Origin: Bradyrhizobium niftali
GTDB taxonomy: Bacteria; Pseudomonadota; Alphaproteobacteria; Rhizobiales; Xanthobacteraceae
Assembly (NCBI RefSeq): GCF_004571025.1
Contig: NZ_SPQT01000010.1
Span: 124,001-188,000 of the forward strand
Reading direction: 5' to 3'
Length of the DNA: 64,000 nt
Positions 16,431 to 19,670 of this stretch are shown here, in pieces. The notes below the pieces were generated by a model. It did no database searches. It saw nothing but the letters and a program-made list of their open reading frames with translations, and was not told the DNA's origin. Both the position numbers and the translations under genes were made by a program. The number at the start of each line of letters is the position of its first letter. Positions within the stretch are counted from its first letter, which is position 1.

Positions 16431-17249
16431 ATGCAAAGCCTCCACGTCAACGGATACGACATGCCCTATCTCGACGTGGGTGAAGACAGGGGTAGACCAC
16501 CACTGGTCTGCGTGCATGGATCGCTCTCGGACTTCCGCATCTGGGGCTGCGTGCTCGGACCGATGACGCAGCGGCACCGGGTGATCGCCGTCAGCCTGCG
16601 GCACTTCTTCCCCGAGCAGTGGGACGGCCTCGGTGACACCTACTCGATCGCGCAGCATGTCGACGACGTCATCGCCTTCATCGAGAAGCTCGACCTCGGT
16701 CCGGTCGATCTGATGGGTCACTCCCGCGGCGGGCACATCTGCTTTCGTGTGGCGCAGGCGCGCCCCGACCTGTTGCGGCGGCTGATCCTGGCCGAGCCCG
16801 GCGGCGAGCTCGATGCGAGCCTCGATCCCGATTACGTCGGTGGCCCCTCGCCGCTCTTGGCGCGGTTCACGGCCTCGGCCGAGAAGATCGCGGCCGGCGA
16901 TGTCGACGGCGGCCTTGCCGTCTTTGTGGACACGCTGGAGGGCGCCGGCACCTGGCCGCGGCTGCCGGCGATGGTGAAGCAGAATCTGCGCGACAACGCC
17001 TATACGCTGATCGGGCAGGTCCGCGACAACCGCCCGCCGTTCTCGAAGGCGGATGCGGAATCGATCAAGATGCCGACGCTGTTCATCCTGGGCGCGCGGA
17101 CCAAGGGCCTGCTGCCGAAGGTGCTGCATGCGCTGGCCGCGCACGTGCCCTATTCGAAGACGGCAATCATCCCGAACGCGACGCATCCGATGTTCGAGCA
17201 GGCGCCGCAAAAATACTCCGAAGTTGTCCTGGACTTTCTGGCGGGCTGA
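16431..17249 (+). CDS. Alpha/beta hydrolase (tandem copy 1)
   Basis: 272 residues. Oxyanion segment VCVHGSLSDFRIW, nucleophile elbow LMGHSRGGHIC (Ser), later acid in the TLFILGARTKG region, and the catalytic His in NATHPMFEQAP. Typical of hydrolases acting on esters or C-C bonds of ring-cleavage products. Ends three bases before the next gene, a clear duplicate. No neighbour indicates a substrate. Upstream, divergently, is ogt. Confidence 0.88.
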   Translation: MQSLHVNGYDMPYLDVGEDRGRPPLVCVHGSLSDFRIWGCVLGPMTQRHRVIAVSLRHFFPEQWDGLGDTYSIAQHVDDVIAFIEKLDLGPVDLMGHSRGGHICFRVAQARPDLLRRLILAEPGGELDASLDPDYVGGPSPLLARFTASAEKIAAGDVDGGLAVFVDTLEGAGTWPRLPAMVKQNLRDNAYTLIGQVRDNRPPFSKADAESIKMPTLFILGARTKGLLPKVLHALAAHVPYSKTAIIPNATHPMFEQAPQKYSEVVLDFLAG

Positions 17250-17251
17250 GC

Positions 17252-18064
17252 ATGCAGACCTTTCACGTCAACGGTTACGACATGGCCTATCTCGAAGTCG
17301 GGGAAGGCCCGCCGCTGGTCTGCGTGCACGGCACGCTCGGGGATTTCCGCACCTGGTATTCGGTGCTCGGCCCGCTGTCGAAGAGCCATCGGGTGATCTC
17401 GGTCAGCCTGCGGCATTTCTTTCCCGAGCATTGGGACGCCATCGGCGACGACTACAAGATGGCGCAGCACGTCGCTGATGTGATCGCCTTCATCGAGCAG
17501 GTGAGGCCCGCACCCGTCGATCTGATGGGACATTCGCGCGGCGGCCACATCGCCTTTCGCGTGGCGCAGGCGCGGCCTGATCTGTTGCGCAAGCTGGTGC
17601 TGGCCGAGCCCGGTGGCGATCTCGACGCCAGCCTGTCGGTCCCTGAAGGCACGCCCGCGCATCCGCCGCTGGCGGCGCGCACGGCGCGCTCGGTCGAGAT
17701 GATCCGCGCCGGCGACATCGAGGGCGCGCTGCAGCACTTCTACGAGGGGATCGAAGGCGACGGCTCGTGGCGGCGCGTGCCGGCGGCGGCGAAGCAGCAA
17801 TTGCGCGACAACGCCGTCACCTTCCTCGGCCAGATCAACGAGCAGCGCAGGCCCTATACGCTCGCGGATGCGCAGGCGATCAGGACGCCGACGCTCCTGA
17901 TCGGCGGCGGCGCGACGACGGGAAGCCTGTCGGTGATGTGGCGCGTGCTGGCGGAGCACATCGCAGGAGCCAAGACGGCCGTGATCGCGAATGCCGGCCA
18001 CTGGATGTTCGAGCAGGCGCCACTGGAATATGGTGAGGTGGTGAACAGGTTTTTGGCGGAGTGA
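17252..18064 (+). CDS. Alpha/beta hydrolase (tandem copy 2)
   Basis: 270 residues, matching copy 1 over its whole length (MQTFHVNGYDMAYLEVGEGP start, LMGHSRGGHIAF nucleophile elbow, NAGHWMFEQAP His loop). The pair surely arose by tandem duplication and is co-transcribed, with a two-base gap. Retention of all catalytic residues in both suggests two active enzymes with different specificity rather than decay. Confidence 0.88.
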   Translation: MQTFHVNGYDMAYLEVGEGPPLVCVHGTLGDFRTWYSVLGPLSKSHRVISVSLRHFFPEHWDAIGDDYKMAQHVADVIAFIEQVRPAPVDLMGHSRGGHIAFRVAQARPDLLRKLVLAEPGGDLDASLSVPEGTPAHPPLAARTARSVEMIRAGDIEGALQHFYEGIEGDGSWRRVPAAAKQQLRDNAVTFLGQINEQRRPYTLADAQAIRTPTLLIGGGATTGSLSVMWRVLAEHIAGAKTAVIANAGHWMFEQAPLEYGEVVNRFLAE

Positions 18065-18094
18065 GTGCGTGTAAGGAGCGCACCGCCGTTGATC

Positions 18095-18238
18095 TCCCTC
18101 GCCCCGCTTGCGGGGAGAGGGTGCGGTGAGGGGGAGCCTCCGCGCAGACGGTGACAGCGAGTCTCGCGGAGACTCCCCCTCACCCGGAATTTGCTGCGCA
18201 AATTCCGGCCTCTCCCTGCAAGCGGGGAGAGGCGAAGG
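18095..18238. repeat. Palindromic intergenic repeat, family R4 (copy 2)
   Basis: CCCCGCTTGCGGGGAGAGGG at one end and CTCTCCCTGCAAGCGGGGAG at the other; inner arms GAGGGGGAGCCTCCGCG and CGCGGAGACTCCCCCTC pair exactly, and a small hairpin CGGAATTTG/CAAATTCCG is nested inside. Lies between convergent genes. Confidence 0.8.
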
Positions 18239-18245
18239 AAGAGCC

Positions 18246-18704
18246 TCACACCTTCCACACGCCGACCGGCATCTTGATCGTCGCGTTGAGGCGGTTCCAG
18301 ACGTTGATGGTCGCGATCGAGAGGATCAGGGTTGCGAGCTCGCGCTCGTCAAAATGCTTGGCGGCCTCGTTCCAGATCGCATCGGGCACCGGATCCTCAC
18401 GGTCGGCGATACGGGTGACCGCCTCGGTCAGAGCCAGCGCGGCGCGCTCGGCTTCGGTGAAATAGGGGGTATCGCGCCAGGCCGAGACGGCGAACAGGCG
18501 CTCGTCGGTCTCGCCGACCTTGCGGGCGATCTTCGGGTGCATGTCGACGCAGACGCTGCAGCCATTGATCTGGCTGGCGCGCAGATGCACCAGTTCCAGG
18601 AGCTTTTCCGGCAGGCCCTGCTTGGTCAAATTGCCGAGAGATTGCAGGACATTCATGGCCTCGGGCAGGACCATGACGGGGTGATTCATGCGGGCGTGCA
18701 TCAT
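18246..18704 (-). CDS. Carboxymuconolactone decarboxylase/AhpD-like protein
   Basis: 152 residues. Contains the AhpD-type redox motif: ELVHLRASQINGCSVCVDMH, that is E-x11-C-x2-C-x3-H, so it is more likely a peroxidase-type or alkylhydroperoxidase-like thiol protein than a true decarboxylase. Start at ATG 18704, with GGAG six bases upstream; an ATG 12 bases earlier lacks a leader. It is divergent from an ECF41-type sigma gene. Known ECF41 loci typically carry exactly such a COE (carboxymuconolactone decarboxylase, oxidoreductase or epimerase) gene as sole target, and a matching promoter is seen here. Confidence 0.92.
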   Translation of the reverse strand: MMHARMNHPVMVLPEAMNVLQSLGNLTKQGLPEKLLELVHLRASQINGCSVCVDMHPKIARKVGETDERLFAVSAWRDTPYFTEAERAALALTEAVTRIADREDPVPDAIWNEAAKHFDERELATLILSIATINVWNRLNATIKMPVGVWKV

Positions 18705-18737: not shown

Positions 18738-18764
18738 GGTCACATTGGCCGGATTGCCTTCGTC
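18738..18764 (+). promoter_or_regulatory. ECF41-type promoter of the sigma gene
   Basis: GGTCACA (18738-18744), 16 bases, CGTC (18761-18764). The consensus reported for ECF41 sigma factors is TGTCACA with CGTC about 16 bases on. Transcription would start about 30 bases before the sigma gene ATG at 18801, giving autoregulation. It is the mirror image of the promoter at 18773-18799. Confidence 0.75.
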
Positions 18765-18772
18765 ATGGGCAT

Positions 18773-18799
18773 GACGGATCGCGATGAGGGAATGTGACC
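18773..18799 (-). promoter_or_regulatory. ECF41-type promoter of the AhpD-like gene
   Basis: On the minus strand GGTCACA (18799-18793), 16 bases, CGTC (18776-18773). Start site predicted near 18766, about 60 bases before the AhpD-like gene. The two promoters face each other, and their elements form an exact dyad centred at 18768.5, including CGTCATG-GG-CATGACG. Confidence 0.75.
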
Positions 18800-18800
18800 G

Positions 18801-19670
18801 ATGACCCCAAAAAACTTTGAAGACGATTTTCTCAGCCAACAGTTCGAGGCCAGCAGGGACCATTTGCGCGCGGTCGCCTACCGGATGCTGGGCTCCCGCG
18901 CCGAGGTCGACGATGCCGTGCAGGAGGCCTGGCTGCGGGTCAGCCGCTACGATACGTCCGATGTCGCGAACCTGCGCGGCTGGCTGACCACCGTGGTCGC
19001 GCGCATCTGCCTCGACATGCTGCGCGCGCGCAAATCGCGCCGCGAGGACCCGATGGGCCCACATGTGCCGGAGCCGGTCGACGAGACGCAGGAGCGCGAA
19101 GCGGAGATGGCCGATTCCGTCGGCGCGGCACTGCTGATCGTGCTGGAAACGTTGCAGCCGGCGGAGCGGCTCGCCTTCGTGCTGCACGACATGTTCGCGG
19201 TGCCCTTCGAGGAGATCGCGCCGATCGTCGGGCGCTCCGTCGATGCCTCGCGCCAGCTTGCTAGCCGTGCGCGGCGGCGCGTGCAGGGTGCGCCGGTGCC
19301 CGAGACGGACCTGTCGCGTCAACGCAAGATCGTCGATGCCTTCCTCAAAGCTTCGCGCGAAGGCAATTTCGAGGGGCTGCTTGCCGTGCTCGATCCCGAC
19401 GTCGTCTTTCGCGCCGACCAGGCCGCGGTGCGGCTCGGTACGCTGCCGGAGATCCGCGGCGCGGATGCGGTCGCGCGGCTCTACAAGGGCCGTGCGCAAG
19501 CTGCACGGACGGCGCTGGTCGATGGCGAGATGGGTGTTGCGGTCATCCTCGGCGGGCAATTGCGCATCGCGCTGCGCGTGAGCTTCAGCGGCGACCGGAT
19601 CGCGGCGATCGAGGCGGTGGCCGATGCAGAAGAGATCGCGGCGATCGAGGTCGAGGTGCTGGAGCGCTAG
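18801..19670 (+). CDS. ECF41-type sigma factor with SnoaL-like C-terminal domain
   Basis: 289 residues. Region 2 (about 15-80): MLGSRAEVDDAVQEAWLRVS; region 4 (about 125-175): LQPAERLAFVLHDMFAVPFE and SVDASRQLASRARRRVQG. The linker GPHVPEPVDET recalls the conserved WLPEP linker of ECF41. From about 185 a SnoaL-like domain follows (DAFLKASREGNFEGLLAVLD). In this family the C-terminal extension both inhibits and enables the sigma factor, and no anti-sigma gene is needed; none is seen here. The start ATG has GAGGGA nine bases upstream. Signal unknown. Confidence 0.93.
   Translation: MTPKNFEDDFLSQQFEASRDHLRAVAYRMLGSRAEVDDAVQEAWLRVSRYDTSDVANLRGWLTTVVARICLDMLRARKSRREDPMGPHVPEPVDETQEREAEMADSVGAALLIVLETLQPAERLAFVLHDMFAVPFEEIAPIVGRSVDASRQLASRARRRVQGAPVPETDLSRQRKIVDAFLKASREGNFEGLLAVLDPDVVFRADQAAVRLGTLPEIRGADAVARLYKGRAQAARTALVDGEMGVAVILGGQLRIALRVSFSGDRIAAIEAVADAEEIAAIEVEVLER

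Follow-up and report, generated by a model that had tools for sequence, protein, structure and literature searches.

The 62 bp element lying between an ECF sigma factor gene and a divergent gene of the AhpD/carboxymuconolactone decarboxylase (CMD) family in Bradyrhizobium niftali is very likely a bidirectional promoter of the adjoining sigma factor, with a putative function in either/or control of the two genes. The conserved property of this element is the 8 bp register between its two opposed −10 boxes, not extra symmetry. The same geometry occurs in several phyla and, as predicted from sequence, is probably a conserved regulatory device. The features of the locus are given below in coordinates of the window, i.e., the whole 64,000 nt stretch of DNA that was analysed.

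18246–18704, minus strand: AhpD/carboxymuconolactone decarboxylase (CMD)-family protein, 152 aa, presumed target (Pfam CMD, ahpD_dom)
18738–18764, plus strand: sigma-ward promoter, GGTCACA-N16-CGTC (pattern search of the window)
18738–18744, plus strand: sigma-ward −35, GGTCACA (from the sequence; identical to the published ECF41 motif except for the first base)
18761–18765, plus strand: sigma-ward −10, CGTC plus A (from the sequence; the fifth-position A is present in 86% of 65 relatives)
18764, minus strand: predicted +1 (G) of the CMD transcript, placed by analogy with S. meliloti SMb20029-rpoE9
18765–18772, no strand: 8 bp gap between the opposed −10 elements, putative positions −8 to −1 of both promoters
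18773, plus strand: predicted +1 (G) of the sigma transcript, the ninth base after CGTC, placed by the same analogy with S. meliloti SMb20029-rpoE9
18773–18776, minus strand: CMD-ward −10, CGTC (from the sequence)
18799–18773, minus strand: CMD-ward promoter, GGTCACA-N16-CGTC (pattern search of the window)
18787–18791, plus strand: Shine-Dalgarno-like AGGGA of the sigma gene, inside the CMD-ward spacer (from the sequence)
18793–18799, minus strand: CMD-ward −35, GGTCACA, between the Shine-Dalgarno-like sequence and the ATG of the sigma gene
18801–19670, plus strand: ECF sigma factor, ECF41/SigJ-like, 289 aa, with a weak C-terminal SnoaL_2 match (Pfam, NF007214, PDB 5xe7)

Two facing promoter copies in the window

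The original prediction placed GGTCACA-N16-CGTC on both strands, mirrored about position 18768.5, and this was confirmed by pattern search of the window; the central sequence CGTCATG-GG-CATGACG was found at 18761–18776, and the minus-strand −35 stops one base short of the sigma ATG (ending at 18799, with the ATG at 18801), also as predicted. With spacers of 14–18 allowed, GGTCACA-N14-18-CGTC has just two matches in the window against 0.12 expected, a number reached in 1 of 100 shuffles, and no face-to-face pair was seen in 200 Markov-1 windows. The TGTCACA form of the motif has no match in the window: the first base of the sigma-ward −35 is G here, and T in 63% of 65 non-redundant relatives. 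Across the 65 relatives, the Shine-Dalgarno region has the consensus GGGAATGTGAC.

A polymerase moving towards the sigma gene would traverse the CMD-ward promoter, and the reverse would apply to one moving towards the CMD gene. The two promoters had been predicted to overlap and compete; the overlap is borne out, and from the geometry we infer that both could hardly be occupied at once.

A long, GC-rich inverted repeat, reminiscent of a dispersed intergenic repeat, was noted by eye at 18090–18240, between the CMD gene and the preceding gene in window coordinates. Two adjacent, similar ORFs lie in tandem at 16431–17249 and 17252–18064; they are alpha/beta hydrolase-like by eye and probably the result of a duplication.

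Symmetry outside the promoter boxes

The mirror symmetry of the four elements exists because two equal-spacer copies of one promoter face each other. It had been suggested that the symmetry is more exact than the two promoters alone require, but this did not hold up: beyond these elements, self-complementarity extends to 14 of 40 positions, where 10 would be expected (7 of 20 mirror pairs, with 5 expected), and the inner mirror pairs of the gap (2-7, 3-6 and 4-5) show no coupling in the 65 relatives (p 0.77, 0.95 and 0.92, respectively). The six inner gap positions show little conservation in the same set. The outermost positions of the gap are A in 86% (first base) and T in 88% (the mirror partner) of the 65 non-redundant relatives, and this pairing slightly exceeds that of shuffles (55 of 65 against 49.9, p 0.01). 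A functional role for the extra ATG/CAT symmetry was rejected, the self-complementarity being near chance and no symmetry of gap positions 2–7 being conserved in the relatives; the inner ATG/CAT of the window is therefore lineage-specific or due to chance.

Conservation within Bradyrhizobium

Same-genus loci were picked by sigma match alone, with motif and gap left unfiltered. From 73 full-length matches in the genus at 74% or above, 70 were taken (G138, G143 and G081 were left out), and fragments (G121, G070, G077, G028, G073 and G042) were excluded. In all 70 loci the −10 boxes are 8 bp apart, both spacers are 16 and both promoter copies pass, i.e., have at most 1 mismatch in 11. G081, which is outside this set, has gap 8 in the family pattern search, and the sigma factor of L121 (B. 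japonicum) is 93% identical. No loss of the motif was seen in close relatives keeping the gene pair, since all 70 examined loci retain it, and the predicted arrangement, in which an ECF41-like sigma gene diverges from an AhpD/CMD gene and both have an ECF41-type promoter in front, is conserved across the genus.

Counted from where TGTGAC ends, the sigma start codon lies 2 nt away in 66 of the 70 loci and 3 nt away in the other 4. On the CMD side, the interval between the gene start and the sigma-ward −35 ranges from 32 to 69 nt, with 15 different values among the 69 loci in which it was measured. If only one direction were a real promoter, the other copy might be held by translation or other constraints, e.g., those of the Shine-Dalgarno and start region of the sigma gene. 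The overlap of the minus-strand −35 with the interval between the sigma Shine-Dalgarno sequence and ATG would agree with this, as would the single good promoter copy found in some relatives (e.g., L372 and L344). Such an explanation is nevertheless very unlikely: nothing of this kind overlaps the sigma-ward copy, yet both copies pass in each of the 70 loci that were selected by their sigma alone, and the two −10 boxes are situated outside both genes.

One sigma orthologue in the set (L042, in genome G020) has an in-frame TAG; its two-way promoter motifs are intact and the locus was retained. Loci with the more divergent same-genus sigmas (L039–L072) carry, in 33 of 34 cases, a GACG located 15–17 nt upstream of the sigma-ward −35, mostly TTTTGACG, which could provide basal expression of the sigma as a housekeeping −35, or could belong to a third promoter directed leftward. 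The 33 negative-gap pairs (−46 to −48) of the genus set were rejected, as they consist of this upstream GACG read backwards with a one-mismatch −35.

Conservation across genera and phyla

A scan of GTDB contigs, with gaps of 0–30 allowed, returned at least 119 loci; 12 of them were discarded for want of a detectable sigma, and among the loci listed, 97 of the remaining 107 sigma-linked loci have gap 8. Because the scan accepted only loci with GTCACA and CGTC intact on either side and with one spacer of 16 bp, it says nothing on how well these letters and spacers are conserved, and neither do the alignment columns of the 65 relatives. Genera or MAG groups with gap 8 number at least 51 and cover six named phyla, with at least 27 groups of Actinomycetota, 13 of Pseudomonadota, 4 of Chloroflexota, 3 of Acidobacteriota, 2 of Myxococcota, 1 of Dormibacterota and 1 with no phylum given. 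Among the loci listed, the other face-to-face gaps are 9 (three loci), 10, 11 (three loci), 21, 24 and 43, spread over 10 groups that all belong to Actinomycetota. These ten rows require ten changes on the sigma tree, and departures from gap 8 therefore look like separate late events.

A pattern search with the same gap range (0–30) matched 85 of 391 genomes of the family, with 60 nt (gap 8) matches in further genera among those listed, and 17 of 398 genomes from other families of the phylum, again including the 60 nt (gap 8) type. The listed matches of other lengths (53–79 nt, including a recurrent one of 53 nt) are without GTCACA/TGTGAC ends and look like coding DNA.

In a relaxed scan, two actinobacterial loci (L358 and L349) were found to have both opposed −35 boxes altered, to GGTTACC and TGTTACC, at gap 9. 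A paired change of this kind is expected if one sigma reads both promoters. It also bears on the possibility that the dyad serves some other symmetric regulator as its operator and does not consist of two sigma promoters, which the symmetry and intergenic position of the element would allow. This can be given almost no weight, given that both −35 elements are altered alike in L358 and L349, that the conserved positions are those of the −35 and −10 of the published ECF41 promoter, and that the inner gap positions carry little information.

The replacement of KGTCACA by KGTTACC at L358 and L349 suggests a shifted sigma specificity. Their neighbour in the tree, L350, shows no promoter pair in the relaxed scan.

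The sigma factor and its clade

The window sigma has Pfam matches to Sigma70_r2 and Sigma70_r4_2, and matches SigJ (PDB 5xe7) at 1.5e-44 in an alignment that reaches residue 245 of 289. Its C-terminal SnoaL_2 match (22.0 bits) is below the cut-off of 27, and so are its scores with the SigJ model NF007214 (242.9 bits, cut-off 271) and with TIGR02957 (220, cut-off 323). In its promoter and its neighbour the locus resembles ECF41: GGTCACA-N16-CGTC is present on both sides, one base off the TGTCACA consensus, and a COE gene (CMD, 1.2e-20) adjoins the sigma gene. Two protein motifs are described for ECF41, WLPEP in the sigma2–sigma4 linker (PMC3426412) and a C-terminal NPDKL (PMC7730460). The linker of the window sigma does not carry WLPEP and reads MGPHVPEP, though a loose pattern, [WHLFYV][LVIM]PEP, accepts it; NPDKL is also absent. 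Other SnoaL groups (ECF205, ECF294 and ECF295) are named in parts of PMC8999054 and PMC7730460.

A sigma tree was reconstructed with FastTree and midpoint rooted (212 rows, with at most 2 per genus from the scan and the scan's Bradyrhizobium rows omitted). The gap-8 rows, 78 in number, are all placed in a single clade with 110 members (support 99); the other 102 rows form a second group next to it, and part of the constancy of the gap is therefore explained by common descent. The loose linker pattern occurs in 15 of the 110 members of the gap-8 clade against 91 of the 102 in the rest of the tree, and NP[DE]KL in none of the 110 against 78 of the 102. Given its scores below cut-off in both models, and a gap-8 clade mostly without the hallmarks, the sigma factor is called ECF41-like and not canonical ECF41. 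Of the original assignment to ECF41, the likeness and the ECF41-type promoters stand; canonical membership does not. The gap-8 clade thus lies near ECF41 and is mostly without the motifs thought to mediate ECF41 self-inhibition.

The target gene and its replacement

The product of the presumed target gene matches Pfam CMD (1.2e-20) and ahpD_dom (1.4e-16). Partners at other loci were called by profile searches covering some 900 nt on the left side. Among the 106 scan loci listed with a face-to-face pair, the partner on the left is CMD at 62 and a glyoxalase-like protein at 7; MFS, SDR and PNPOx-like proteins account for 4 each, and ABC and FAD-binding proteins for 2 each; 17 have no assigned partner and 4 are at contig ends. 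This search replaced partner calling by longest ORF, in which some of the frames were wrong and the CMD count came out too low (49 of 98). Thirteen non-CMD seeds stem from the longest-ORF picks, and 8 of these 13 were examined with Pfam (the Pfam names come from 10 examples); the partner proteins of L213 and L203 were polyketide cyclase-like and TrmO-like by Pfam. Partner type changes at least 8 times among the 45 gap-8 tree rows with an assigned partner, a count made without shuffle control and one that errors of FastTree would inflate. The target gene has changed several times while the geometry was retained.

Two ordinary, autonomous promoters of the same sigma might have come to face each other by chance, and the 8 bp spacing would then be inherited and without function. 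In keeping with this, the gap-8 tree rows all belong to one sigma clade, and gaps of 9, 10, 11, 21, 24 and 43 exist beside such sigmas and may work. The retention of gap 8 in six named phyla, the freedom of the CMD-side distance to vary within the genus and the changes of partner type (at least eight) all argue against it, making it an unlikely explanation.

Loci without the strict element

The strict gap-8 test is failed by 22 of the 39 sigma-anchored clade members in the tree; among the 17 others are six same-genus representatives, together with members of genomes chosen for having the element. Weaker pairs at gap 8 or 9 are present in six of the 22, scoring 17–18 of 22 (best of the shuffles, 13–17), and L332, L354 and L352 score 18–19 at gaps of 26, 30 and 1; nothing recognisable was found by the relaxed scan in others. 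An actinobacterial sample has the strict element at 4 of 99 sigmas, two of them in the centre genome, which was chosen for having one, and at 2 of 91 sigmas when that genome is left out; these sigmas were collected with NF007214 at E 1e-60, a model and cut-off that disfavour the gap-8 clade. The strict element was found at none of the 18 other same-genus ECF41-type loci, L372 having a degraded version.

A large regulon in the B. niftali genome was considered and rejected. KGTCACAY-N14-16-CGTC has 5 sites in the genome, two of which are the window locus, against 4 for the reversed-pattern control, and TGTCACA-N15-17-CGTC has 2 sites against 6; there is no evidence of further targets.

Predicted transcription starts and a proposed mechanism

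The start positions in the window, and recognition of the element by the window sigma, are predicted from the literature by analogy. The start of SMb20029-rpoE9 in S. meliloti is reported 9 nt downstream of TGTCACA-N16-CGTC in the accessible text of PMC3616915, and its promoter sequence as printed in the corresponding part of PMC6180224 ends CGTCATGGTGTCG, the start being the last base printed in the two-method entries of that source; these data come from a one-directional operon whose sigma is outside the tree. In the relevant table of Wecke et al. (PMC3426412), a G start is followed by a leader of 22/23 bp and 31/32 nt are listed for the same genes, a 9 nt difference that, on our reading of the table, fits a start 9 nt after CGTC. 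A set of 46 unpaired ECF41-type matches, several of them one-mismatch matches and some of which will be chance, has G or A at position 9 after CGTC in 36 (79%) and C or T at position 8 in 76%. Positions 10–13 are also purine-rich (65–72%), so the start-like step at positions 8/9 gives weak support. GACG is found at positions 9–12 in 1 of the 46 and is thus not a general part of such promoters. At a gap of 8, the ninth base after each CGTC is the G that pairs with the final C of the facing CGTC, usually with a T before it, and a start at 9 nt would fall on the final base of the other promoter's −10.

Read as a bidirectional promoter, the element would allow the sigma–RNA polymerase to dock on the same DNA in either of two opposite orientations, to melt largely the same few bases, and to transcribe either to the right, through the sigma gene, or to the left, through the AhpD/CMD gene. 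At gap 8, the +1 G of each promoter, with the T at −1, would be the complement of the −10 element of the other: CGTCA is TGACG on the other strand, which would supply T at −1 and G at +1. The extended −10, read on the other strand, would then be the initiator of the other promoter, and both open complexes would involve approximately the same bubble. Every initiation would therefore go in one direction or the other, and positive autoregulation of the sigma would be tied to expression of the neighbouring target. The shared bubble, the mutual exclusion and the physiological effect are all putative.

A wider form of this proposal has, in our judgement, about an even chance of being correct. A SnoaL-type branch of ECF sigma factors, spanning at least six phyla, would use a self-complementary 60 bp promoter with a single bubble, in which each −10 is the initiator of the other; it would act as an obligate either/or divider between sigma and target, and the module would be kept while the target is swapped (CMD, glyoxalase-like, SDR, MFS, ABC, PNPOx-like). 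If true, a strongly conserved two-way geometry, tied to one sigma clade, would sit inside a positive feedback loop, and the circuit would include competition between the two orientations of polymerase. The element is small (62 bp), so the register, the exclusion and the noise effects are directly testable.

Comparison with known systems

The ECF41 promoter TGTCACA-N16-CGTC was described by Wecke et al. in 2012, and the accessible text of that study (PMC3426412) reports 55 divergent <ECF< >COE> loci, with the motif before the ECF gene in 36 and before the COE gene in 41, often both; the dual promoter was therefore already known. The window locus is like these in having an ECF41-type promoter, and the neighbours given there are CMD/AhpD, oxidoreductase or epimerase; it differs in that its sigma is without WLPEP and NPDKL. 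In its passages on these loci, PMC3426412 states neither a distance nor an interlock between the two promoters, and the word 'overlapping' does not occur in them. No fixed interlocking register of an ECF sigma turned up in the literature search, which covered the main text of open-access papers. The S. meliloti RpoE9 (ECF41) system, SMb20029-rpoE9, shares the −35/−10 and a CMD target according to the parts of PMC6180224 and PMC3616915 that deal with it, but has a one-directional operon promoter, unlike the window.

Bidirectional bacterial promoters have recently been described as a by-product of −10 symmetry. In the sigma70 promoters studied by Warman, Grainger and colleagues, one element binds polymerase in two orientations, and, as described in the available portions of PMC12825309 and PMC10268837, starts on opposite strands are mostly 18 bp apart, commonly 10 or 23 too, and lie either side of or within the shared −10, with competition when one direction is strongly activated. 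The definition used there is of opposite-strand starts 7–25 bp apart with key promoter positions overlapping; the predicted starts in the window are 9 bp apart, each within the −10 of the other. The sigma70 cases, as far as those portions go, depend on the near-symmetry of one −10 element and use several distances. Unlike them, the window has two complete ECF promoters with −35 boxes in one dominant interlocked register, and the element adjoins the sigma gene that it is predicted to serve. Divergent ECF41–target pairs with two promoters were published in 2012, and a conserved two-way promoter of fixed register is the best reading of the window element.
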